The position numbers were made by a program, and so were the translations under genes. From Pseudomonadota bacterium (GTDB lineage Bacteria > Pseudomonadota > Gammaproteobacteria > Burkholderiales > JAKAFK01): a stretch of 33,817 nucleotides of DNA. Below the pieces are notes generated by a model that was given only the letters and a program-made list of their open reading frames with translations, searched no databases and was not told the DNA's origin. Each line of letters begins with the position of its first letter. Position 1 is the first letter of the stretch. The stretch spans positions 1-33,817 of the forward strand of contig JAKAFK010000044.1 of the NCBI GenBank assembly GCA_021817985.1, read 5' to 3'. Below are positions 8,290 to 31,099 of this stretch, in pieces.

Positions 8290-8343
8290 CGGGTCATTTT
8301 CTCGCCCGTGACCGATCTTTTCGATTACACCGAAGGAAATGCC

Positions 8344-11274: not shown

Positions 11275-11483
11275 CGGCTGTCATCGAGCGGCTTCGCGCC
11301 TCTCCGAAAACGGTCCAGGTGGCGCTCGTCCTCGGCGCCGCATGGGTGCCCTACTTCTGCCTGCCGATGCATCCGATCCTCGGCATCATCGCGTTCGGCG
11401 GATTCACCACGGCCTTCCTCGCCGCACAACCCTTGCGCCGCCGAAACCCCGCCCCATCCGCAGCCGATGGGGAATCGGAATAA
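11271..11483 (+). CDS. Small two-helix membrane protein
   Basis: A 70-residue protein whose ATG overlaps the preceding stop in an ATGA, which suggests translational coupling. The sequence has two hydrophobic segments, about residues 15-32 (VQVALVLGAAWVPYFCLP) and 35-51 (PILGIIAFGGFTTAFLA), followed by a basic and then acidic tail. I do not recognise a family. Its place between two T4SS-associated genes suggests an inner-membrane accessory protein. Confidence 0.6.
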   Translation: MTAVIERLRASPKTVQVALVLGAAWVPYFCLPMHPILGIIAFGGFTTAFLAAQPLRRRNPAPSAADGESE

Positions 11484-11496
11484 GGAGAGTTTTCGC

Positions 11497-12357
11497 ATGC
11501 GCAATTTCCGCCTCCTTCCGCTCACGTTCCTGCTCCTCGCATCCTGCGCCGCACAGCGGCCGCAGCCCCAAAAGTTGTCGGCCGTCCTCGCGCATTACCA
11601 CTTCAGCTATCGCATGACGGATCGCCGTGCGGTGTCCCTTATCCAGGTCTTCGACGATGGCACCCGTACCTATCTCCAATTCAAGGAGCCCTATGCGGCG
11701 CCCGTCATCACGGCGGACAACACCAACACCCCACTGCCGTACTCGCGGCAAGGCCTCTTCGCAATCGTCGATGGCGTTTATTCCTCCTTGACGGTTACGA
11801 CCGTTGGCCACCGCACTGTTGTGCACAACGACAGCCGGGGGGCTCTGACCCCCCTGCCCGCTCCGGTCGCCGCGGTCATCCATCGTCCGCGCGTTGAATC
11901 GTTGCCGCCGGCACTGGTTCCCTCGCCCACTCCTCCGGCCTCCCATCCGGCGACGCCGTTTCTTGCATCCCTGTGGGCTGCGCCTGGCGGCCGCAGCAGC
12001 GTCGGGTTCGATGTCCCGTTCGCCCGAAGGGCCCTCAGGCTTGGCCCCGAAGGGGATGCCGTGCTTAACAAGGCCGCGCCGATCGCGGCCGCTGCCCAAC
12101 ACATCACGCTTTATGGGCGCGCGACGTCCGGCAATGCGGAGAGCCTGTGTGCAACCGACCGGCGCGCGCTGCAGCGCGCCTGGCTTGTCATGGCGGACCT
12201 CGTCAGGCACGGCGCGGATCCGGGCAAATTCCGAGTGTTCTATTCGGGCAAGAAGGGTGTCGATCTGGTCGAGGTCAGGATCGACAAGGGCGCCACCTCT
12301 ACAGCCAGCTTATCAGGCGCGAGCGCTCTCGAGACGGCGCGCACGGCAAAGGAGTGA
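11497..12357 (+). CDS. Lipoprotein with VirB9-like domain fused to OmpA-like region
   Basis: A 286-residue predicted lipoprotein: MRNFRLLPLTFLLLASC has a lipobox LASC (Cys17); AAGGAG precedes the ATG. Residues about 46-112 align with the C-terminal domain of the neighbouring TrbG: VFDDGTRTYLQF versus VFDDGTKTYIEM. The APV...NTPLPYS...LFAIVD and VVHND pattern then matches TrbG APA...NTPFLVN...YYIVD and DIVNK. A Pro-rich linker follows (about 118-155). Residues about 165-255 resemble OmpA/Pal-type peptidoglycan-binding domains, with ITLYGRATSGN, then TDRRALQRAWLVMADLVRHG and a YSGKKG end. The Asp normally found in the GxTD motif is not visible there, so peptidoglycan binding is uncertain. It could take the place of VirB7/TrbH as the lipoprotein partner of the outer core, anchoring it to the cell wall. 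Confidence 0.75.
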   Translation: MRNFRLLPLTFLLLASCAAQRPQPQKLSAVLAHYHFSYRMTDRRAVSLIQVFDDGTRTYLQFKEPYAAPVITADNTNTPLPYSRQGLFAIVDGVYSSLTVTTVGHRTVVHNDSRGALTPLPAPVAAVIHRPRVESLPPALVPSPTPPASHPATPFLASLWAAPGGRSSVGFDVPFARRALRLGPEGDAVLNKAAPIAAAAQHITLYGRATSGNAESLCATDRRALQRAWLVMADLVRHGADPGKFRVFYSGKKGVDLVEVRIDKGATSTASLSGASALETARTAKE

Positions 12358-14564: not shown

Positions 14565-15041
14565 ATGAAGCGCTCTGCCCTACTCTCCGTCATTTTGGCG
14601 GCGGTCGCCACGAGCCCGGCGCGCGCCGCAGACTTCGAGACGACCGCGCGCGTGCTCAGCGCCACGCCGCGCATGGAAACGTACAGCGTGCCGCACCAGG
14701 AGTGCACGACCGTGGCCCCGACCGCTTCGAATAATCGCAGCGTCGCCGGCTCCATCATCGGCGGCATTGCCGGCGCCCTGCTCGGGGCGCAGGTGGGCCA
14801 GGGGAACGGCCGCGTGGCCGCCGCCGCGGTGGGCGCGGGGACCGGGGCGATCGTCGGGGACCGCATGCAGAACGGAAACGGGCAACCGGGCCAATCCTGC
14901 ACGACGGTTTACCAGCAGGAACAACGCCCGAGCGGGTACATGGTGACGTACCAGTACCATGGCCAGACCGTTACGGACTGGCTGCCGAACGATCCGGGCG
15001 CGTTTGTCCACGTGCGCGTCCACCTTCAAGCCGTCGACTGA
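14565..15041 (+). CDS. Glycine-zipper envelope protein, 17-kDa surface antigen type
   Basis: A 158-residue exported protein with a signal peptide (MKRSALLSVILAAVATSPAR, cleavage near RAAD). The centre has a glycine zipper: SIIGGIAGALLGAQVGQGNG followed by VAAAAVGAGTGAIVGDRM. This is the double hydrophobic glycine-zipper of the Rickettsia 17-kDa antigen/SlyB-like group, inserted in the outer membrane or periplasm. The C-terminal half has SCTTVYQQEQRPSGYMVTYQ and a short beta-like end (TDWLPNDPGAFVHVRVHL). There is no lipobox Cys at the end of the signal peptide, unlike SlyB. AAAGGAATC precedes the ATG. It lies on its own between transfer genes and plasmid control genes. Confidence 0.8.
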   Translation: MKRSALLSVILAAVATSPARAADFETTARVLSATPRMETYSVPHQECTTVAPTASNNRSVAGSIIGGIAGALLGAQVGQGNGRVAAAAVGAGTGAIVGDRMQNGNGQPGQSCTTVYQQEQRPSGYMVTYQYHGQTVTDWLPNDPGAFVHVRVHLQAVD

Positions 15042-15153
15042 GGAGGACGGGCCGCGCTATCTGGACACGCGCGAAGGCATGGGGCGGAGCCGCTGCGTTT
15101 CAGGGTGTGCGCCGGGTGGGTCCGCCGCCGTCACCTTTCCGCGGAGGGGCGTG

Positions 15154-15561
15154 ATGCGAAAGAAGAGGCGAATGAGCGCCAGCGAGTTCGAGGCGGTGCG
15201 GCCGCTCCTGAATATCTCCCAGGAGCGTGTCGAGGCGGCCCGGCTTGCGCTGGTGGACGACCGGACGTTCCAGACTGTGGGCGAGCGATACGGGTGGAGC
15301 CGGCAAGCGGTCTGGGATGCCGTGGGTGTGGTATGGAAGCAGTTTGGGCGGTACAAACGGGCGCTGGCTGCGATGGAGGGCGGCGTGGCCCTGCCGCCCG
15401 GGTGGGAAAGTGCCACCATCGCGGCGCCCACGGCGATGATTGCCCGTTTCCGGCTGGAAGCGGCCGAGGCGGCTGCGGCCGCCGGATGGGTGGCGTCGAA
15501 CGGGGGTCGGGCCGGTGAAAGGGGTGCCGAGGCATCGATGCGCCGAAACGCGGGAGATTGA
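15154..15561 (+). CDS. TrfB/KorA-like transcriptional repressor (first copy)
   Basis: A 135-residue protein with GGAGG before the start. RMSASEFEAVRPLLNISQER, VEAARLALVDDRTFQTVGER and YGWSRQAVWDAVGVVWKQF form the TrfB/KorA-type helix-turn-helix: a short conserved first helix, the phrase AR-x-x-LVD, and SRQAV in the recognition helix. KorA proteins repress replication, partition and transfer promoters of IncP-type plasmids. The protein continues with an Ala-rich C-terminus. GTG at 15151 just before the chosen ATG is an alternative start. It is followed by a second paralogue; the -35 box of that gene's promoter overlaps the end of this one. Confidence 0.75.
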   Translation: MRKKRRMSASEFEAVRPLLNISQERVEAARLALVDDRTFQTVGERYGWSRQAVWDAVGVVWKQFGRYKRALAAMEGGVALPPGWESATIAAPTAMIARFRLEAAEAAAAAGWVASNGGRAGERGAEASMRRNAGD

Positions 15562-15592
15562 CAATAGACTACCGCATTCCTATAGTCATAGG
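15558..15592 (+). promoter_or_regulatory. Strong sigma-70 promoter with palindromic -10, shared operator
   Basis: TTGACA (15558-15563), 17-bp spacer, TATAGT (15581-15586): a near-consensus promoter for the second korA-like gene. CCTAT-AGTC-ATAGG forms an inverted repeat over the -10. The 20 bases from the -35 box (15558-15577) match the promoter before the DUF932 gene at 19476-19495 in 18 of 20 positions, which marks a common operator. Confidence 0.7.
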
Positions 15593-15625
15593 GCCAGACC
15601 TGGAAAACGTACCGAAGACTCCCCT

Positions 15626-15961
15626 ATGCCCAAAGCCACCCTACTCGCCGGATCGATGACGGCAGAACAGTTTGACGCCATCGCAGCACGTTTCGCCCAA
15701 ATGTCGGCGCGTGGGAAAGCGCTCGCCCGTCGTGTGCTGGTCGACGGTCTGTCGATCGCCGATGCGGCCCGGGAGTTTGGGTTGAGTCGGGAGCGGGGCA
15801 CGCAGTGTGTCAGGAAGTTCGATAACGCCCTCTACCCCGCCGATTGGGTGAGCGCCGTCGTACGCCTTCCGCCGGCGCTCATGCTGGCGGTGCAGGAGAT
15901 GGAAAAGGAGGCACTGGCGAAATGGCGCGCCGAACGGGCAGCCGTCCTGGAAAAGCGATAG
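15626..15961 (+). CDS. TrfB/KorA-like transcriptional repressor (second copy)
   Basis: A 111-residue protein. MTAEQFDAIAARFAQMSARG, KALARRVLVDGLSIADAARE and FGLSRERGTQCVRKF are a TrfB/KorA-type helix-turn-helix. The order (MT/SAxxF, ARxxLVDG, FGLSR) parallels the protein encoded just before, so the two are diverged tandem paralogues. Start ATG at 15626 lies about 40 bp after a strong promoter with a palindromic -10, which suggests autoregulation. There is no clear ribosome binding site (GAAGAC only). In IncP plasmids korA stands beside incC/parA; here too parA follows. Confidence 0.8.
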   Translation: MPKATLLAGSMTAEQFDAIAARFAQMSARGKALARRVLVDGLSIADAAREFGLSRERGTQCVRKFDNALYPADWVSAVVRLPPALMLAVQEMEKEALAKWRAERAAVLEKR

Positions 15962-16053
15962 GCGGTACCATACAAGCGCCATGCGGGTACGGTAGCAGCA
16001 TCGCATAGGAACCAGACCAGTACCACACCAGTACGGCACGCAGACAGTACCGG
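15962..16053. repeat. RTAY repeats in 11-bp phase, upstream block
   Basis: GTAC or GTAT tetranucleotides begin at 15965, 15987, 16020, 16031 and 16053; all intervals are multiples of 11 bp. AGTACCACACCAGTAC (16019-16034) is the exact reverse complement of 16155-16170 in the downstream block. Probably binding sites of a partition or KorA-type protein. Confidence 0.6.
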
Positions 16054-16154
16054 TATGGTAGTGTGGCGCGGTTGCGCGTCGCAGGGGGTTGCGGCGGTTG
16101 ATCTCCGGGGTGGGTCGGTGGCATGGTTCGCGGGTTTTCTATCACCGCAAAATG

Positions 16155-16246
16155 GTACTGGTGTGGTACTAGATTGACACAAGTCGCGTACCCGTCGCAT
16201 ACTGGCGCGATACGGCTACCGTACTAACATGATATTGGAGCGATAC
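16155..16246. promoter_or_regulatory. 11-bp-phased RTAY array over the parA promoter
   Basis: Tetranucleotides starting at 16155 (GTAC), 16166 (GTAC), 16188 (GTAC), 16199 (ATAC), 16210 (ATAC), 16221 (GTAC), 16232 (ATAT) and 16243 (ATAC) are spaced by exactly 11 bp; only the position at 16177 (ACAC) deviates. A promoter is embedded: TTGACA (16174-16179), 18-bp spacer, CATACT (16198-16203). The last unit ends two bases before the parA ATG. One protein per helical turn could coat this DNA, as ribbon-helix-helix partition proteins do. It is therefore a candidate operator and centromere-like site. Confidence 0.7.
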
Positions 16247-16247
16247 G

Positions 16248-16886
16248 ATGATCCTGCTCGTTGGGGGTGAGAAGGGGGGGACTGGGAAGTCGACAGCCGC
16301 GACGAATCTGGCGGTTTGGTGTGCGCTCGAGGGAATGAACGTCATTTTGCTCGACGCGGATTCGCAAGGCACGTCCCGCAACTGGAACGATCGTCGCCAG
16401 CAGGCGGGGCTTCCCAACATCCCTTGCCAGGCCGGCACCGGAAACATCTTCAACCATGTGCAGGATCTGGCCAAGCTGTACGAGCATGTGATCATCGACG
16501 CCGGTGGCCGCGACTCCAAGGAACTACGTTCCGCGGCCGTTGTGGCGGACATCTGGTACACCCCGGTACAGGCGTCCCAACCCGATCTCGAAACGCTCGC
16601 CAAGGTGCGCGAACTCGCGCAGCAGGCCCAGGCCATGAATCAGGCCTTGAGCATCCATGCGTTTGTCACCCGGGCGCCAACGCACCCGAACATCGACGAG
16701 CTCGCCGAAGCCAAGAACCTCATTGCGGATTTTCCGGATTTTCCGGAATTGCAGCTGGCCGATTCGGTGATCTTCGAGCGAAAGGTCTACCGCGATGCGA
16801 TGATCGAGGGGAGGGGAGTGATCGAGACCGGCAATTCCAAGGCGAAGGCCGAAATCCAATTGTTGGCGCAGGAGATATTTCAATGA
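16248..16886 (+). CDS. parA: ParA/MinD-type partition ATPase
   Basis: A 212-residue Walker-type ATPase for plasmid partition. It has the deviant Walker A at residues 9-15 (KGGTGKS) in VGGEKGGTGKSTAATNLAVW, the A' motif VILLDADSQGTSRNW near 33-47 and Walker B-like HVIIDAGGRD near 81-90. It lacks an N-terminal DNA-binding domain, so it belongs to the short (type Ib-like) ParA group; such proteins pair with small ribbon-helix-helix proteins. TTGGAG precedes the ATG at an adequate distance, inside the phased repeats. The stop overlaps the next start (ATGA), consistent with a parA-partner operon. Confidence 0.92.
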   Translation: MILLVGGEKGGTGKSTAATNLAVWCALEGMNVILLDADSQGTSRNWNDRRQQAGLPNIPCQAGTGNIFNHVQDLAKLYEHVIIDAGGRDSKELRSAAVVADIWYTPVQASQPDLETLAKVRELAQQAQAMNQALSIHAFVTRAPTHPNIDELAEAKNLIADFPDFPELQLADSVIFERKVYRDAMIEGRGVIETGNSKAKAEIQLLAQEIFQ

Positions 16887-17197
16887 GCAAATTCAGAGTG
16901 GCGAAAAGCGTGGATCCCGCAAAACTGGATGCGTTCGTCGAAGGGGCAGGGCGGCCGGCCGTCCAAGCGGTTGCTCCGGCGCCGGCGGCCAACCCGGCTG
17001 CGGCGCCCCGTGCGGATAACGAACATCCGTGGGAGAATTTCGCTCCCGATGCGCTCCCCAAGACCGGCATCAACCTGCGGCTCAACGACTACGAGCATCA
17101 AGCCTTGAAGTGGCTTGCCGAGAGGGATGACCGCAGTTTGCAATACACGCTGAAACGGCTGCTCAAGCAAGCGCTCGAAACGGAGCTGCCCCGCTGA
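16883..17197 (+). CDS. Small ribbon-helix-helix-type partition partner
   Basis: A 104-residue protein translationally coupled to parA by an ATGA overlap. The N-terminal part (MSKFRVAKSVDPAKLDAFVE) is followed by an Ala/Pro-rich linker and a C-terminal segment GINLRLNDYEHQALKWLAER plus SLQYTLKRLLKQALE. A beta strand followed by two helices is the ribbon-helix-helix arrangement of ParG/CopG-like centromere binders. It probably binds the 11-bp-phased array before parA and stimulates the ParA ATPase. The basic N-terminal tail could carry the ATPase-stimulating arginine finger as in ParG; I infer this only from gene order. Confidence 0.75.
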   Translation: MSKFRVAKSVDPAKLDAFVEGAGRPAVQAVAPAPAANPAAAPRADNEHPWENFAPDALPKTGINLRLNDYEHQALKWLAERDDRSLQYTLKRLLKQALETELPR

Positions 17198-17204
17198 TCG
17201 CACC

Positions 17205-17229
17205 GTACGGTATGGTACTGGTATCGTAC
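17205..17229. repeat. GTAC repeats between the par genes and repA
   Basis: GTAC occurs at 17205, 17215 and 17226, with GTAT at 17210 and 17221; spacing is 10-11 bp. This resembles the arrays before parA and may be another target of the same protein, linking partition to repA expression. Confidence 0.45.
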
Positions 17230-17282
17230 TATCCGAAGCGGGCAGGCGAGGGCACGTTGCGACAGGCGACTGATCCGGAACG

Positions 17283-17297
17283 GCACACGATAGACGA
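17283..17297 (-). promoter_or_regulatory. Inverted iteron copy in the repA leader
   Basis: GCACACGATAGACGA is the exact reverse complement of the iteron TCGTCTATCGTGTGC found in the origin. It lies 16 bp before the repA ATG in the opposite orientation. Many iteron plasmids carry such a site where the initiator represses its own gene. Confidence 0.65.
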
Positions 17298-17312
17298 CAA
17301 AGGGGTTCGGTA

Positions 17313-18242
17313 ATGGCGAAGCTGGAGAATGACCATTTTTCCGAAGGTATGACCATCGTTGAGGATGTCGTGCAACTGGAATTGTTCGTGCCGGCGGATA
17401 ACCCGGATCTGGCATTCAAAGAGGACAATTCCTCCCTCGAACTGCCGCTGTTCAGCCTCTCGAAGAACAAAGACATCCGGATTCGCGAATTCACCAGGGG
17501 AGGGCGCTTCGTCCGCATCGTCCCCAGCGTCGTCGGCGCGGCGACCCAGTTCGACAAGGACTTGCTCATCTACGCCGTGTCGAAGATCGTCCAGGCGAGA
17601 GAGGAGGGGAGGCCGATCTCCCGCCGCATCCGCATCAAGACGTTCCCGTTCCTTGAAGCCACCCGGCGAAGCCAGGGCGGCGCCGCCTATACCCGAGTGG
17701 TCGAGACCTGCATGCGCCTCAAGGGCACGACCCTCGTGACCAACGTCAAGAGCACAGAGGAAGAGAGTACCGAAGGCTTCGGCTTCCTCGACGACTTCAA
17801 GGTGACCCGCCGCACCAAGAACGGAAAAGGCGCGATCGAGGTCGAAGTCACGATTTCCGAGTGGCTCTATCGCGCCACCCTCGCCAACGACATCCTGACG
17901 CTCAATCCCGAGTACTTCTCGCTCAGCCAGCCCCTGGAGCGGCGCCTGGCCGAGCTCGCCCGCAAGCATTGCGGCGACAAGGCATTCTGGAAGATCGGCA
18001 TCGATCTGCTGCATGAAAAAACGGGCAGCCAACAAACGCCGCGCCGCTTCAAGCAGGAGCTCAAGGGGATCATCGCCGCCAATCGCCTCCCGGACTACCG
18101 TGTGACGCTGGACGAGGCAAACGGCCGGTGCGACGTGGTTTTCCTGACGAAAAATACCCGCAAATTGCTCGCCGAAATGGTCAAGGGCCCAAACGCGGCA
18201 TGGCTCCAACGCGTGGCCATGCCCGCCATCACGCAGCCCTGA
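17313..18242 (+). CDS. repA: Plasmid replication initiator RepA (RPA family)
   Basis: A 309-residue initiator. LELPLFSLSKNKDIRIREFT, followed by the segment from VGAATQFDKDLLIYAVSKIV, then SEWLYRATLANDILTLNPEY and FSLSQPLERRLAELARKHCG, are typical of the RPA (replication initiator protein A) family of plasmid initiators. Two winged-helix domains are expected. It starts 16 bp after an inverted iteron, and its start has GGGGTTCGG as a weak binding site. The iteron origin lies directly downstream, so protein and origin form one replicon unit. The gene is intact, which implies that the element can replicate as a plasmid at least for part of its life. Confidence 0.9.
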   Translation: MAKLENDHFSEGMTIVEDVVQLELFVPADNPDLAFKEDNSSLELPLFSLSKNKDIRIREFTRGGRFVRIVPSVVGAATQFDKDLLIYAVSKIVQAREEGRPISRRIRIKTFPFLEATRRSQGGAAYTRVVETCMRLKGTTLVTNVKSTEEESTEGFGFLDDFKVTRRTKNGKGAIEVEVTISEWLYRATLANDILTLNPEYFSLSQPLERRLAELARKHCGDKAFWKIGIDLLHEKTGSQQTPRRFKQELKGIIAANRLPDYRVTLDEANGRCDVVFLTKNTRKLLAEMVKGPNAAWLQRVAMPAITQP

Positions 18243-20466: not shown

Positions 20467-22368
20467 ATGTCCAGCAAAGAAACCACTGCGAACAATGAAA
20501 AACTTGCGCAGTTGCCCCTTTCGTCCCTGTTTCGCTCGCCACTCAACGTGCGCACGAAGCGAGGGACCAACCTCGCAGAGCTCGCTGCCTCCATGCTGGC
20601 CCATGGCGTCCTGCAAAATCTGGTTGTGACCCCGGAGCTCAAGAAGCGCAAACCGACCGGCCGCTATGGCGTCGTGGCCGGAGGCCGGCGCCTGGACGCG
20701 CTTACGCGGCTGCACGGCGAGGGGAAGATCCCAGAAGCCTATCCCGTGGCCTGCAAGATCATCGGCGAGCGTGAGGCGGTCGAGCTCAGCCTTGCGGAAA
20801 ATTGCGGGCGCGAAGCGCTCCACCCCATCGACCAGTTTCAGGCATTCAAGGCCCTGGTCGATGGGGGAAAAAGCGTCGAGGACGTGGCGGCCGCGTTCGG
20901 CGCGACACCATTGACCGTCAAGCGCAGGCTCAAGCTCGCCAACGTCGCGCCGCGCTTCCTCGATCTTTACCGGAACGACGAAATCACGCTTGAGCATCTG
21001 ATGGCGTTGGCGCTCACGGACGATCATGCCCGCCAAGAAGAGGTGTGGGACAGCCTCGAAGGCTATGCATGCCAGCCGTGGAGAATCCGGCAGCTGCTCA
21101 CGGAACAGGAAATCGACGTTTTGCGCGATCCCATGGCGCGGTTTGTCGGGGTGGACGCCTACGAGGCCGCCGGCGGGATCGTGCGCCGAGACCTTTTCAG
21201 CGATGCCGACGAGGGCGGGTTCATGACCGACAAGGCCCTGCTCGAACGGCTCGCCCAGGAAAAGCTTACCAGCGCAGCGGCAACCGTCCAGGGGGAGGGC
21301 TGGGCATGGGTGGAGGTCAGGCCTCGCGTGGACTTCGCGGAACTGTCCGCTTATGGCCGCGTGGAGCCGGAGCGCCGCGAACCCACGCCCGAGGAACAGG
21401 AAAGACTGGAAGCCATCGGCAAGGAGATGAACGAGCTTCAGGAGAAAATCGATAACGGCGAGATCTCGGAAGACGATGACGAGGCCCTGGCGCGCTTTGA
21501 TGCGCTGGAAGCCGAGCACGAAGCGATTGGCGAAGGCCTCCTCGTCGCATCCGAGGAAGACCACAGCTTGGCGGGCGCTTTGGTCACCATCGATTCGAGC
21601 GGCAGCCTTCATGTCAGGCGCGGCCTTATCCGCCCGGGCGACAAGGTGTCGGCCAGCAGCCAGGCGGGGGAGGGGGCGAACGTTGAGCGCAAGAAGCCGA
21701 TCCACTCGGAACGCTTGACGCGGCAGCTCACCGCGCATCGTACCGCCGCGATGCAGGCATCCCTCGTCAATTCCGCGGACGTGGCGATCGCCACGCTTGC
21801 CGCGCGGCTGGCCGCGCAGGTGTTCTACCCCTTGAGCTCGTTGCGTTGGGAAAACGTCACGCAAATCCGGATCGAAACGCCCGATCTGGCCAAGGATGCG
21901 CCGGACTTCGCGGAGAGCCCGGCCGCCAGTGCGTTGAACGGTGCGCGTGAGCGCTGGCAAGCCAGGCTGCCGGTCAAGGCCGAATTTCTTTTTGGGTGGA
22001 TGCTCGAGCAGCCACAGGAAACCGTATTTGAGCTGTTGGCTTTCTGCACGGCGACCACGATCAACGCGGTCTATCCTCGTGATTGGACAACGGAGGCCGC
22101 AGACCAGCTCGCCCAGGCGCTTGACCTCGATATGGCGCAGTGGTGGAAGCCCACCAAGGAGAGCTATCTCGCGCACGTGCCCAAGTCGCGGATCGTAAGC
22201 GCCGTGGCCGAGGTGGCACCGGAGAAGGCCGCCAGACTCGCGACCATGAAAAAGGATGCGCTGATCGAGGCCGCAGAGCGGCATCTGGGCGGTTCCGGGT
22301 GGCTTCCGGAACCGTTGCGTGGCATGTGTGCTCCTGACGCCTCGCAGGAGGGTATAGGCGCGGCATAA
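20467..22368 (+). CDS. ParB/RepB/Spo0J-family protein of plasmid type
   Basis: A 633-residue protein. The ParB N-terminal (CTPase-fold) domain covers about residues 15-115: LPLSSLFRSPLNVRTKRGTN, the YGVVAGGRRLDAL box with GGRR at 72-75 and LSLAENCGREALHPIDQFQA. A helix-turn-helix follows near 137-160 (SVEDVAAAFGATPLTVKRRL). An acidic coiled-coil stretch lies at about 305-360. The C-terminal half is long and unlike chromosomal ParB, as in large ParB-like proteins that accompany DUF932 on plasmids. GGAGATACGG precedes the ATG. It is not next to parA, so its role may be regulation or DNA processing rather than classical partition. Confidence 0.88.
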   Translation: MSSKETTANNEKLAQLPLSSLFRSPLNVRTKRGTNLAELAASMLAHGVLQNLVVTPELKKRKPTGRYGVVAGGRRLDALTRLHGEGKIPEAYPVACKIIGEREAVELSLAENCGREALHPIDQFQAFKALVDGGKSVEDVAAAFGATPLTVKRRLKLANVAPRFLDLYRNDEITLEHLMALALTDDHARQEEVWDSLEGYACQPWRIRQLLTEQEIDVLRDPMARFVGVDAYEAAGGIVRRDLFSDADEGGFMTDKALLERLAQEKLTSAAATVQGEGWAWVEVRPRVDFAELSAYGRVEPERREPTPEEQERLEAIGKEMNELQEKIDNGEISEDDDEALARFDALEAEHEAIGEGLLVASEEDHSLAGALVTIDSSGSLHVRRGLIRPGDKVSASSQAGEGANVERKKPIHSERLTRQLTAHRTAAMQASLVNSADVAIATLAARLAAQVFYPLSSLRWENVTQIRIETPDLAKDAPDFAESPAASALNGARERWQARLPVKAEFLFGWMLEQPQETVFELLAFCTATTINAVYPRDWTTEAADQLAQALDLDMAQWWKPTKESYLAHVPKSRIVSAVAEVAPEKAARLATMKKDALIEAAERHLGGSGWLPEPLRGMCAPDASQEGIGAA

Positions 22369-26096: not shown

Positions 26097-27911
26097 CTAT
26101 TGGCGCGAAAGATGGGCATAGAGCAGGGTAAGGCGAGCGGGGAGTTCGGCCGCTTTGCGAATGATTACAAAATTGTGCCGTCCAAAAATATGGGGAAGGT
26201 AGTCATGGGCGTATTGATCGATCGTTATGCAGAACGGACGCAGCCCCTGGCGTCGTGCGTCGATAAACGCGTGGCGCGTGTCCTCGATGCCGAATCGTCC
26301 ATCGTAGATATCTGCGTCATTGGGCTTGCCGTCCGTGAGCAGCAGTAGCAAGCGGTCGCGCATCCTCTCCTGAGAGAGCACGCGCGTGGCGGCGCGTATT
26401 GCCGCACCCATACGGGTATAATAACCTGGTGAAATTCCCAGAATGCGTGCGCGCACGCGAGGACTATAGGGCTCATCGAAGGTTTTGAGGGGATGGAAGC
26501 GAACATCCATACGGGTGCGGGAGCTGAATCCGTAGACGGCGAATCGGTCACTCGTCATCGCCAGAGTTTCCGCAAAGAGAATCAGGCTGTCGCGAATGAC
26601 GTCGATGACTTGGCGTTCGTTGTCGACCGCAGCGTCCGTAGATAACGACAGATCCGCAAGCAACAGGCAGGCGAGATCACGGTTGCGCGGGCGTTCGTCG
26701 CGATAGAAGCGATTATTGCTGTGACCATCGGCGAGAAAGCGCAGATAGGGGTCAAGGTCGATTTCGGGGCCGTCGGGCTGTGCGCGCAGGCGCAGCGGGT
26801 ACGGCGTGGCCGAAGACAGATGCGCATGGAGGTGCTTGCGCACCTGCCTCAGATGCGCCGGGAATTCGGCGGGCCCAGCGGCTTCTGCGGCGGCGTATTC
26901 TCGGAGGGCACAGTGTCCGTCTCTCAGGATTCTTTTGCGATAGTCCCACTCGGGCAAGAGGATCTCGCCAAGGGCCAATCCGTCGTCGTTTCCTGTGGCC
27001 ACAGGCTCGAGATCCATTCGCAGCCGCTTCGCGGGGGCTTGTCCGTGCCGACTCACCGCCAGCACGTCCATGTCATCGGCTGAAGCTGGGGGCAATCCCT
27101 CGTCGTCCTGCGTCTGGCCGTCGAGGTCGAAGTATTGGGTCCAGGTGAAAATCGTTTCTGGCCGCGGCAGAAAGAAGCCCGCCCGGCGCTGGCGCTCCTC
27201 AACAGGGTTGGCGAGGCGGCGTTTACCGTCGCCTTCACTTTGGGGGACTTTCATGGGCGCAGGCGTCATGTCAACCTTTGAATGATCCGCTTCGCATAGC
27301 CGCGGCGGATTAGGATGCAGCCATATCCGTACCGGGTGCCACACGCGTTTCGCCTGGGGAAGCGCGTGCACCGTCCCGGGGTGGCGCAGCGCTCGCCGAA
27401 TAGCCGCCTCCTGCGCGGCCTCGTCGCTCCGGAGTGAATCGGGATTCGGGCGGTGCGCGATCTCGGCGTCTGCAAGGCGCTTGTAGCACGCCTCGAGGCC
27501 CGGGAATGACTGCAGGACGGATAGCGTAGCCTGCTGGCTGGCAACAATCCACGGATGGGTGGATCCGAAGGCATGGGCGGCAAGGGCGCTTAGCCAGAGG
27601 TATAGGTCATGATTCAAAGACGCGTCCGGGTAGGCGTCGATCACCGCCGGTAGCCGCAGAGCTTGTTCATCCACCCACGCGAGAGCAACCCTGTCCCCGG
27701 TTCCCGCAAGCCGTTCCCGTAGCGTGCGCTTGTGGCCCGAGATGGCTTTTGTACCCGCGACGACTTGGATTCCCGGAGGGCCGCCGAAAGCGCGGAACCA
27801 GAGAGCGGCACGGCGGGAGATGTTCGCGAACGTTACGGCGCTTTCCGGAAAACCTCTCCCGGCTGCCACAGTAATCAATTGGTGCCACCAAAGGCCGACC
27901 CTTTCTTCCAT
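26097..27911 (-). CDS. norD: NorD, VWA-domain activator of nitric oxide reductase
   Basis: A 604-residue protein. The C-terminal von Willebrand A domain has an intact MIDAS motif DLSLST (D420, S422, S424) and the TDGKPNDADIYDGRFGIEDT segment. The N-terminal 400 residues are the variable NorD/CbbO part. NorD works with the AAA+ protein NorQ to activate the NorCB complex, probably through insertion of the non-haem iron. It starts 14 bp after norQ, as last gene of the cluster. Length is normal for NorD. Confidence 0.92.
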   Translation of the reverse strand: MEERVGLWWHQLITVAAGRGFPESAVTFANISRRAALWFRAFGGPPGIQVVAGTKAISGHKRTLRERLAGTGDRVALAWVDEQALRLPAVIDAYPDASLNHDLYLWLSALAAHAFGSTHPWIVASQQATLSVLQSFPGLEACYKRLADAEIAHRPNPDSLRSDEAAQEAAIRRALRHPGTVHALPQAKRVWHPVRIWLHPNPPRLCEADHSKVDMTPAPMKVPQSEGDGKRRLANPVEERQRRAGFFLPRPETIFTWTQYFDLDGQTQDDEGLPPASADDMDVLAVSRHGQAPAKRLRMDLEPVATGNDDGLALGEILLPEWDYRKRILRDGHCALREYAAAEAAGPAEFPAHLRQVRKHLHAHLSSATPYPLRLRAQPDGPEIDLDPYLRFLADGHSNNRFYRDERPRNRDLACLLLADLSLSTDAAVDNERQVIDVIRDSLILFAETLAMTSDRFAVYGFSSRTRMDVRFHPLKTFDEPYSPRVRARILGISPGYYTRMGAAIRAATRVLSQERMRDRLLLLLTDGKPNDADIYDGRFGIEDTRHAFIDARRQGLRPFCITIDQYAHDYLPHIFGRHNFVIIRKAAELPARLTLLYAHLSRQ

Positions 27912-27925
27912 TGTCTGGTCTCTTC

Positions 27926-28747
27926 TTACTGGCCGCCAAATACCGCGGCGGACACTCGCGAGAGGGCTTCAATCGTTTCCGTGTCATCCGACAGGCATTC
28001 CAGGATCGCGACTCGGCACGCCTCTTGCGGCCCGCATCCAAGCACCATCAGCTTGGCCGCGTTGACGAGAAGACGTGTGCCGGGTGCTTCTTCGAGGTCG
28101 TGCTCGGCGCTCTGACGCAAGGCGTGCGCGAGACGCGCGAGACGCTTGGCGCGCTCCGCGTCGAGTCCGGCCTCCTTGATGATGATGGACGTTTCTCGAA
28201 CGGATTCGGGGAAGCCGAAGCTAAGCGATATGAAGCGCTGGCGCGTGCTCGGTTTGAGTCCTTTCAAGAGGTTCTGGTAGCCGGGATTGTAGGAGACCAC
28301 CAGCATGAATTCTGGCGGCGCGCGCAGAAGCTCGCCGGTTCTGTCGATCGGCAGCATACGACGGTCGTCCGACAAGGAGTGGAGGATGACCGTTGTATCC
28401 TTGCGTGCCTCGACCACCTCATCGAGATAGCAGATGCCCCCGGCGCGAACGGCGTTGGTCAGGGGGCCATCGACCCAGTAGGTGCCCTTTTCGCCGATCA
28501 GGTGCCGGCCCACGAGGTCAGTCGCGCTCAGATCGTCATGGCATGACACAGTGAGAAGAGGGCGCCCGAGGCGTGATGCCATATGTTCGACGAAACGCGT
28601 TTTGCCGCATCCGGTCGGACCTTTGATAAGGAGCGGCAGCCGATTGCGATAGGCGTATTCAAAGATTGCGATCTCATTGCCAGAGGGCACGTAGGCGGGC
28701 CCGTCGAACGTGTGCGTAGTCGCAGGGACAAGGGGGGCGGATTGCAT
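27926..28747 (-). CDS. norQ: NorQ, MoxR-type AAA+ activator of nitric oxide reductase
   Basis: A 273-residue AAA+ ATPase of the NirQ/NorQ/CbbQ group. Walker A GPTGCGKT at 43-50, Walker B GGICYLDEVVEA with D109 and E110, then FMLVVSYNPGYQNLLKGLKP with the sensor Asn, and the typical TRQRFISLSFGFP segment. The protein cooperates with NorD in cytoplasmic maturation of the reductase. It starts 15 bp after the norF stop. The start ATG was kept because the next downstream Met would remove the conserved FDGPAYVPSGNE segment. Confidence 0.94.
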   Translation of the reverse strand: MQSAPLVPATTHTFDGPAYVPSGNEIAIFEYAYRNRLPLLIKGPTGCGKTRFVEHMASRLGRPLLTVSCHDDLSATDLVGRHLIGEKGTYWVDGPLTNAVRAGGICYLDEVVEARKDTTVILHSLSDDRRMLPIDRTGELLRAPPEFMLVVSYNPGYQNLLKGLKPSTRQRFISLSFGFPESVRETSIIIKEAGLDAERAKRLARLAHALRQSAEHDLEEAPGTRLLVNAAKLMVLGCGPQEACRVAILECLSDDTETIEALSRVSAAVFGGQ

Positions 28748-28762
28748 AAAAGGATCCTTCGA

Positions 28763-29023
28763 TTACGACAGCAGGTAAGGCGCAGCGATGAGTGCTGTCA
28801 CCAGCACCAGATAGCTCGCGAGCGCTGCGCGCCAAATGGGCCGCACCCGACGCAATCCCATGAAGTAGTCGACCACGAGCTGCCCTTTTGCCAATGTAAG
28901 GGCCAGGACGCAGACCATGAGGATGCGCTGGGGGGGGCCTTCGCTCAAGCGATAGGTGGCTGCGGTCAAGCCGATGATCGCGGCCCACGCGATGGTACAT
29001 GGGCGAGGCCGTCGTATAGGCAT
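28763..29023 (-). CDS. norF: NorF-like small membrane protein
   Basis: An 86-residue protein with three hydrophobic segments: AWAAIIGLTAATYRL, ILMVCVLALTLAKGQLVVDY and ALASYLVLVTALIAAPYLLS. ALTLAKGQLVVDYFMGLRRV is characteristic of the COX4/NorF group. The place beside norE supports the call. A strong AGGAGG stands 17 bases before the ATG, which is unusually far. The true start may therefore lie a few codons upstream or translation may depend on coupling with norE. Confidence 0.8.
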   Translation of the reverse strand: MPIRRPRPCTIAWAAIIGLTAATYRLSEGPPQRILMVCVLALTLAKGQLVVDYFMGLRRVRPIWRAALASYLVLVTALIAAPYLLS

Positions 29024-29050
29024 GAGGTTGATGACCGTTTCCTCCTTGTT

Positions 29051-29632
29051 TCAGTGGATTACGTACACCAGGGCGAACAAGATGATCCAGACGAGATCGA
29101 CCATGTGCCAATAGGCTCCACCCGTTTCGACGCCGGTATAATTCGCCGCATCGTAGCGGCCGGCATAAGCCTTAACGGTGACGACCGAGAGGATCACCAT
29201 ACCCATGAGTACGTGCATGAAATGAAAGAATGTCAGGCAGAGGTAAAACATATAAAAAAGATTGCCTGAGAGGGTGATGCCGTGCGTGTAGTCCTGATGA
29301 AATTCCGTCAGCTTGACCCCGATGAAGCCCGCGCCGAGAAGGAGGCTGGCTGTGAGCCAATGCCCGCAGGCGAGACGATGTCCTGCCTTGATCGCGGTGG
29401 TGGCGCGTGCGACGAAATAGCTGCTGGTCACGAGGAGAACCGTGTTCCACAGCCCATAGACCCGGTTAAGGGCCCGCTGCGAGGCATCGAAGAGTGCTAC
29501 ATGCTCACTGCGCGTGATCGCGTAGGCGGCGAATAGCACGGCAAACACGGTCAGCTCCGCGAAGATGAACACCCATATTGCAAAATCGCCCGGCAGGCCA
29601 GGTTTCCCGTCGACTGCCAGTTCTTGAGCCAT
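29051..29632 (-). CDS. norE: NorE-like haem-copper oxidase subunit III homologue
   Basis: A protein of 193 residues (196 from an alternative GTG at 29641) with five hydrophobic segments. FAIWVFIFAELTVFAVLFAA, LWNTVLLVTSSYFVARATTA and the C-terminal GAYWHMVDLVWIILFALVYV are typical of COX3/NorE proteins. I prefer the ATG at 29632 because GGGGTGGA stands at suitable distance before it. The subunit is not part of purified NorCB but supports its activity. A strong hairpin separates it from norB. Confidence 0.88.
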   Translation of the reverse strand: MAQELAVDGKPGLPGDFAIWVFIFAELTVFAVLFAAYAITRSEHVALFDASQRALNRVYGLWNTVLLVTSSYFVARATTAIKAGHRLACGHWLTASLLLGAGFIGVKLTEFHQDYTHGITLSGNLFYMFYLCLTFFHFMHVLMGMVILSVVTVKAYAGRYDAANYTGVETGGAYWHMVDLVWIILFALVYVIH

Positions 29633-29652
29633 CTGATCCACCCCGTTTCAAG

Positions 29653-29678
29653 CGGGGGCGAGGCGTTCCTCGCCCCCG
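29653..29678 (-). terminator. Strong hairpin between norB and norE
   Basis: A perfect 11-bp stem (CGGGGGCGAGG with its complement) and a four-base loop lie 9 bp after the norB stop. No T-run follows. It can protect norCB mRNA or reduce read-through, giving more of the structural subunits than of the accessory proteins. Confidence 0.5.
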
Positions 29679-29686
29679 TTTCTGAC

Positions 29687-31099
<1,413 letters not shown>

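Follow-up and report, generated by a model that had tools for sequence, protein, structure and literature searches.

In type Ib partition systems, the ribbon of a ribbon-helix-helix (RHH) protein binds a DNA array, the operon is repressed, and a flexible N-terminal arm of the protein activates the partner ATPase (PMC5016525, PMC7602700, PMC3235114, PMC5393062). The size limits given for this type are 192 to 308 aa for ParA and 46 to 131 aa for its partner (PMC3235114). In pB171 and pSM19035, both of type Ib, arrays lie upstream and downstream of par, and the upstream array of pB171 takes part in transcriptional regulation (PMC7602700); construct names for this plasmid give the order parC1-parA-parB-parC2 (PMC4270457). 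In the delta-omega system of pSM19035, RHH dimers occupy contiguous repeats that lie on promoters (PMC5016525, PMC9499535), and full stimulation of the ATPase requires at least four contiguous repeats (PMC9499535). TP228 carries repeats upstream of its operon and another such region (OF) with a role in both partition and transcription control (PMC5016525), pESBL has arrays upstream and downstream on which one ParB complex forms per repeat unit by EMSA (PMC7602700), and in pP62BP1 17 8-bp repeats precede parA, and the partner has a ParG domain (PMC3346939). For the type Ib ParB of pCXC100 from Leifsonia, a centromere of direct repeats only is described (PMC5016525).

Against this background we analyzed a partition locus within a DNA stretch of 33,817 nucleotides (JAKAFK010000044.1 of assembly GCA_021817985.1, positions 1-33,817, forward strand), hereafter the window, to which all coordinates refer. 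Judging from its sequence, the region 15965-16246 is very probably both the centromere (parS/parC-type) of a type Ib system with an RHH-type ParB and the operator from which the parA-rhh operon is controlled. This agrees with the preliminary description, which had regarded the region as a probable centromere and operator for the small RHH protein, a reading now supported by the array itself, the ParF-type ATPase, the RHH partner, and the recurrence of such arrays in relatives.

Table 1. Features of the partition locus and its neighbors in the window
Feature	Positions	Strand	Description
Second KorA/TrfB-domain protein	14959..15558	+	Pfam; context
KorA/TrfB-domain protein (PF16509)	15440..15961	+	Pfam; context, rival DNA binder
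Distal block	15965..16056	.	9 steps of 11 bp, RTAY 5/9, RYRY 7/9; probable core centromere
Exact 16-nt inverted repeat, left arm	16019..16034	.	partner 16155-16170
Proximal block	16155..16246	.	9 steps of 11 bp, RTAY 8/9, RYRY 9/9; probable operator and centromere
Exact 16-nt inverted repeat, right arm	16155..16170	.	partner 16019-16034
Promoter-like site TTGACA-18-CATACT	16174..16203	+	inside proximal block; sole one found in 15900-17340
parA	16248..16886	+	212-aa ParF-type Walker ATPase
RHH partner gene (ParG/ParB-like)	16883..17197	+	104 aa; overlaps parA by 4 bp
Third RTAY cluster	17205..17229	.	RTAY at 17205, 17210, 17215, 17221, 17226; half-turn interleaved; between RHH gene and repA
repA, Replication initiator protein A (PF10134)	17313..18242	+	Pfam; context

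The gene content and layout of the locus are those of type Ib. The closest PDB match of its ParA is ParF of TP228 (4dzz, E 4.6e-16, aligned residues 8 to 211), and the protein has the small size of type Ib ATPases and no N-terminal DNA-binding domain. A partner of suitable size is encoded directly downstream, and its identification as a small RHH protein holds notwithstanding weak Foldseek E-values; upstream of parA, a repeat array lies on a promoter-like site. On its own, the 104-aa protein gave no significant family in Pfam, PHROGs, or single-sequence PDB searches (FitA-like_RHH reached E 0.029). A profile built from 16 partner proteins of related loci, by contrast, retrieved ParG (1p94) as its top PDB match (E 5e-5), followed by CopG-type RHH proteins. 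In the AF2 model (mean pLDDT 79.5, pTM 0.46, block pLDDT means of 90 to 98 over residues 61-100), an N-terminal helix (12-22) and two further helices (69-82 and 86-101) are predicted, and no strand was assigned in the monomer. Foldseek against the PDB found nothing at E 0.001 or better with this model (best 0.32), its best listed rows being mostly RHH proteins with weak E-values. VIA-align, a re-examination of Foldseek's own list in which missing families carry no evidential weight, likewise placed mostly RHH domains on residues 59-104, with a best Z of 7.0, omega at 5.5, and ParG at 4.9 (41 residues, rmsd 0.8), all below the Z of 8 under which matches are possibly unspecific. Profile and predicted fold together support a ParG-like RHH protein, in line with the RHH nature proposed for it at the outset.

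The contig is plasmid-like, since KorA/TrfB genes, repA, a large ParB_N/HTH_ParB protein, and type IV secretion genes surround the locus; a search for an exact terminal repeat of 15-300 bp, the sign of a closed contig, found none. The large protein (633 aa, 20467-22368, with ParB_N and HTH_ParB domains), whose gene lies about 3.3 kb past that of the RHH protein, gives the contig two ParB-type proteins, the RHH partner being the other. The two KorA/TrfB frames are consecutive and overlapping, each with a repressor domain, a tandem that seems unusual. Near a full CagX gene at 8308 there is a second, partial CagX-like match at 11467-12357 (E 6e-8, below the Pfam cut-off). Beside the plasmid backbone, on the minus strand at 26097-31084, lie genes for a norQ/cbbQ-like AAA protein, a VWA protein, and a COX1-family protein, the last of which is possibly a nitric oxide reductase.

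The array consists of two blocks. In the proximal block, RTAY recurs at exact 11-bp steps (16155, 16166, 16188, 16199, 16210, 16221, 16232, and 16243), with ACAC at 16177 as the one exception, just as had been noted before. The comparison with shuffled sequence leaves little room for chance: when the 299-bp region was dinucleotide-shuffled 5000 times, no more than five of nine steps ever carried RTAY at period 11, against eight observed, and in 300 shuffles of the whole window the maximum was four. No other period from 5 to 39 exceeded 4/9 RTAY steps in the real window. When the proximal block was shuffled alone (n = 5000), RTAY reached at most five and RYRY at most seven steps, compared with the eight and nine observed. 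For the distal block, whose RTAY and RYRY counts were equalled in 1 and 2 of 5000 shuffles, respectively, the earlier claim of the same period in another phase was borne out; the phases truly differ, since the 102 bp from 16053 to 16155 are no multiple of 11. In a motif-free column-information score, no stretch of the window scores higher at period 11 than the distal block (Z 7.05), and the proximal block reaches Z 6.56. In terms of density, 15 RTAY fall within 15962-16247 (52.4 per kb), compared with 237 in the window (about 7 per kb).

At first sight, the ACAC step interrupts the series. Under the wider core RYRY, however, all nine proximal steps fit, so that ACAC is no clear break. The preliminary description had held that only four bases are fixed per turn: a four-base box per 11 bp does stand, and its fixed part is more accurately described as RYRY with a preference for TA. 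The motifs RTAY and RYRY are each identical to their reverse complement, which would fit the site expected for a two-fold symmetric dimer. The two blocks are further joined by the exact 16-base inverted repeat that had been reported between them, and by a second, 25-nt one at 80% (15980-16004 / 16207-16231). Finally, an 18-bp composite, GGTACTGGTRTSGTACTA, made of two boxes and a conserved spacer, has three copies in the window, exact at 16154-16171 and 17214-17231 and with 2 mismatches on the minus strand at 16018-16035; 100 shuffles yielded none, up to 3 mismatches being allowed.

The array had also been said to cover the -35 and -10 elements and to end at the start codon. The promoter-like site does lie inside the proximal block, with the ACAC step overlapping its -35 hexamer as part of TTGACAC, and the last base of the block is one base before the parA start codon. 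The promoter itself is likely from its place; in the searched interval one such site was found, against 0.5 expected by chance.

A third RTAY cluster, downstream of the operon, and the composite had both escaped the preliminary description. The 115 bp after the RHH gene hold five RTAY, all starting within the 22 bp of 17205-17226, the densest such group in the window, and five were equalled in 1 of 200 whole-window shuffles. Scored as an 11-bp array of RYRY, by comparison, 70 of 200 shuffles were as good. The cluster ends about 85 bp before repA and may be a second centromere or a repA operator, both of them candidate roles. Among 21 relatives tested, seven (L010, L029, L030, L035, L037, L038, and L039) have an 11-bp RYRY array after the RHH gene, equalled by no more than 3 of 200 shuffles.

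Is this architecture peculiar to one contig, or does it recur beside related parA genes? A DNA-level plasmid search gave one short match in one record. Searches with the 104-aa protein found 2 plasmid records, one genome in 100 (its own), and none among phage records, and tblastn gave 5 matches over 63 relative loci. ParA was found in 13 of 399 genomes across the order (E 1e-25) and, as an alignment, in 3 of 398 across the phylum (E 1e-60), the source genome included in both. The single ParA sequence returned two distant loci (24-26% identity) from genome contigs and none from viral contigs, where a ParA alignment used instead returned 79 loci. Related loci were drawn from named plasmids and IMG/VR contigs: 57 of the 79 viral loci were used (22 were left out as partial or distant), and only some of the plasmid matches listed entered the comparison. 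For the period survey, 79 loci were taken and 15 near-duplicates dropped, leaving 64 distinct parA-upstream regions; the nominal parA start is non-ATG in eight of these, of which L119 and L120 are not true upstream regions. Most of the related parA genes are followed by a small RHH-like gene.

The results of this survey revealed that 11 bp is the strongest of 16 periods in 20 of the 64 upstream regions, including one false call, L009, whose visible array is ACTC and which also counts among the 19 and the 18 given below. The same period led in 1 of 64 parA coding controls, where multiples of 3 came top in 54, as expected, and in 6 of 122 other non-coding control segments. A z above 3 at 11 bp was reached by 19 of the 64 upstream regions, compared with 1 of the 122 control segments. 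These segments were taken from the 64 loci and from L003, L004, and L014-L028, the last group stemming from the search across the order, and a few of them may lie near a parA because the exclusion zone around parA was misplaced in L003 and L004.

As for the repeated unit, RYRY has the highest mean z (3.49) among 48 two-letter tetramers over the 18 period-11 loci besides the window, followed by YRYY (3.31). It ranks first in 4 of 19 such loci, the window included, and is not the main periodic unit in L012 (rank 48), L055 (23), L038 (20), L050 (20), or L073 (16). When the Enterobacterales plasmids L029, L030, L032, L035, and L039 are aligned in lines of 11 bp, each counted from its own ATG, boxes resembling GATACC, GGTACT, or GGTATC fall in one column, and these boxes end at the parA start codon, as in the window. 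A core starting at position -5 from the parA start is shared by the window and 11 of 23 other loci, most of the 11 being related Enterobacterales-type loci; the shared phase is weak evidence, because it is mainly common to related loci.

On a ParA tree of 62 rows, the 24 rows of the 11-bp group, five of them assigned by hand after their RYRY rows had been viewed, require 13 changes, compared with 19.6 in shuffled labels (0 of 500 as low). The label is therefore clustered, yet it does not form one clade, because at least 9 changes are forced by well-supported branches; on this tree, built from ParA sequences, 11-bp spacing arises, or is lost, many times. Nor is the period strictly inherited with ParA, because the nearest ParA relatives lack 11-bp arrays and use other steps: among those 54-58% identical, L005 shows a 10-bp period and L040-L042 show periods of 5, 10, or 15 bp, whereas ACTC arrays are seen in L006-L009, of which L006 and L007 are Burkholderia loci (53-55% identical). 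Upstream of parA, L040, L041, L042, L077, L081, and L083 have 5-, 10-, 15-, or 20-bp periods with units like ATATC or ATGG/CATGCC, apparently another spacing class. The Marinobacter plasmid L010 has, at 1745-1888 and upstream of its 11-bp array, a strong separate 18-bp period of CACCTTGCACGGTGTA-like units.

With these relatives at hand, other origins of the array can be weighed. The boxes could be the operator for one of the two KorA/TrfB-domain repressors encoded just upstream, as part of a plasmid-wide regulon. Two such proteins are indeed near, and GGTACTGGTRTSGTACTA appears again before repA, as a shared operator would; the analysis turned up nothing further in favor of KorA. The 259 bp before the first korA hold just 3 RTAY, or 11.6 per kb, against 52.4 in the array region and about 7 in the window, and a tblastn search with the two KorA proteins (E up to 0.01) gave no match in the 63 relative loci, many of them with arrays, within upstream flanks of about 0.2-2.5 kb. 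KorA operators, moreover, are single 12-bp palindromes and not arrays, and we consider this origin improbable. Even less credible is that the clusters are iterons or RepA operators controlling replication from the adjoining repA. The position of the third cluster just before repA would suit such a role, but a repA homologue lies within the flanks of only 2 of the 63 relative loci while arrays are repeatedly seen upstream of parA, it is parA and not repA at which the main blocks end, and four-base boxes are shorter than usual iterons. That the period reflects only the weak general 11-bp background of non-coding DNA in bacteria, due to curvature or supercoiling, is very far-fetched: bacterial genomes do show 11-bp dinucleotide periodicity, but the 122 control non-coding segments have none (mean z at 11 bp -0.02), and the array region has 57-58% GC and a periodic signal made of a short box instead of A-tracts.

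We therefore return to the centromere and operator as the preferred reading and can sketch how it might work. Dimers of the 104-aa protein would insert their two-stranded ribbon into the major groove at every RYRY box, with a preference for RTAY. The boxes being one helical turn apart, the dimers would stack on one face of the DNA and probably bind cooperatively; an 11-bp step, unlike one of 7 or 8 bp, should place successive dimers on nearly the same helical face. A filled proximal block would cover the -35, the -10, and the start region and so repress the operon (autoregulation), and a filled array would show many N-terminal arms, which could interact with the ParF-type ATPase and promote its hydrolysis of ATP; the plasmid would thereby be moved over the nucleoid. 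It is tempting to speculate that the third cluster and the inverted arrangement of the two blocks may permit pairing, looping, or coupling to repA.

A broader proposal, which we offer tentatively and with more doubt than conviction, is that the centromeres of type Ib systems form a set of discrete spacing classes (about 7, 8, 5/10, and 11 bp), of which the 11-bp class would be widespread and mostly undescribed, its one-face dimers reading little beyond a palindromic RYRY core with a deformable central YR step and its last box often being locked to the parA start codon. If this is true, plasmids can change the sequence of their centromere yet keep its geometry. RHH centromeres are hard to find by similarity because their boxes are tiny and fast-changing, and a fixed 11-bp beat with an RYRY core would give a recognition rule for those beside parA genes. 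It also raises a structural question, namely, how ParA is activated by RHH dimers one turn apart as opposed to those on the 7-bp omega and 8-bp ParG sites. What may be new in this work is the recurrent 11-bp class together with its RYRY core: we found no description of 11-bp type Ib arrays in the open literature, which does not prove that such arrays are absent from print, since key papers on the pB171, pCXC100, and pTAR sites are closed.

The locus can be compared with the described systems one by one. TP228 (ParF-ParG-parH) has an ATPase and an RHH partner of the same families. Its units are ACTC tetramers at an 8-bp step, whereas the window has RTAY at 11 bp and its proximal block gives no signal at period 8 in the motif-free score (Z -1.3). 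The contiguous 7-bp heptads of pSM19035 likewise differ from the 11-bp spaced boxes of the proximal block, which shows no signal at period 7 (Z -0.43). Like the window, pESBL and pP62BP1 combine a small ParB with repeat arrays at the par operon, but their repeats are octamers instead of four-base boxes at 11 bp. As to Leifsonia, we take the Microbacteriaceae plasmids of Clavibacter (L031) and Herbiconiux (L036) to be akin to it; their ParAs are 46 and 45% identical to that of the window, and the Herbiconiux locus has a period-11 region (z 4.8), with the Clavibacter locus weak (z 1.4). The par2 locus of pB171 (ParA-ParB, with parC1 upstream and parC2 downstream) resembles the window in its ParA, its small type Ib ParB, and its array before the operon, and it has a downstream array where the window has a short, dense, half-turn interleaved cluster that 70 of 200 shuffles match at 11 bp. 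An E. coli locus (L038) presumably resembles pB171: parM and a further partition gene lie upstream, parA is preceded by 11-bp rows, and an array follows the RHH gene. Compared with the window, the spacers of L038 are AT-rich as opposed to mixed and its boxes are like GATACC/GGTGCT as opposed to GTAC/ATAC. Taken together, the device looks like one of an ordinary kind, a type Ib partition centromere, whose exact spacing recurs in many distant plasmids.
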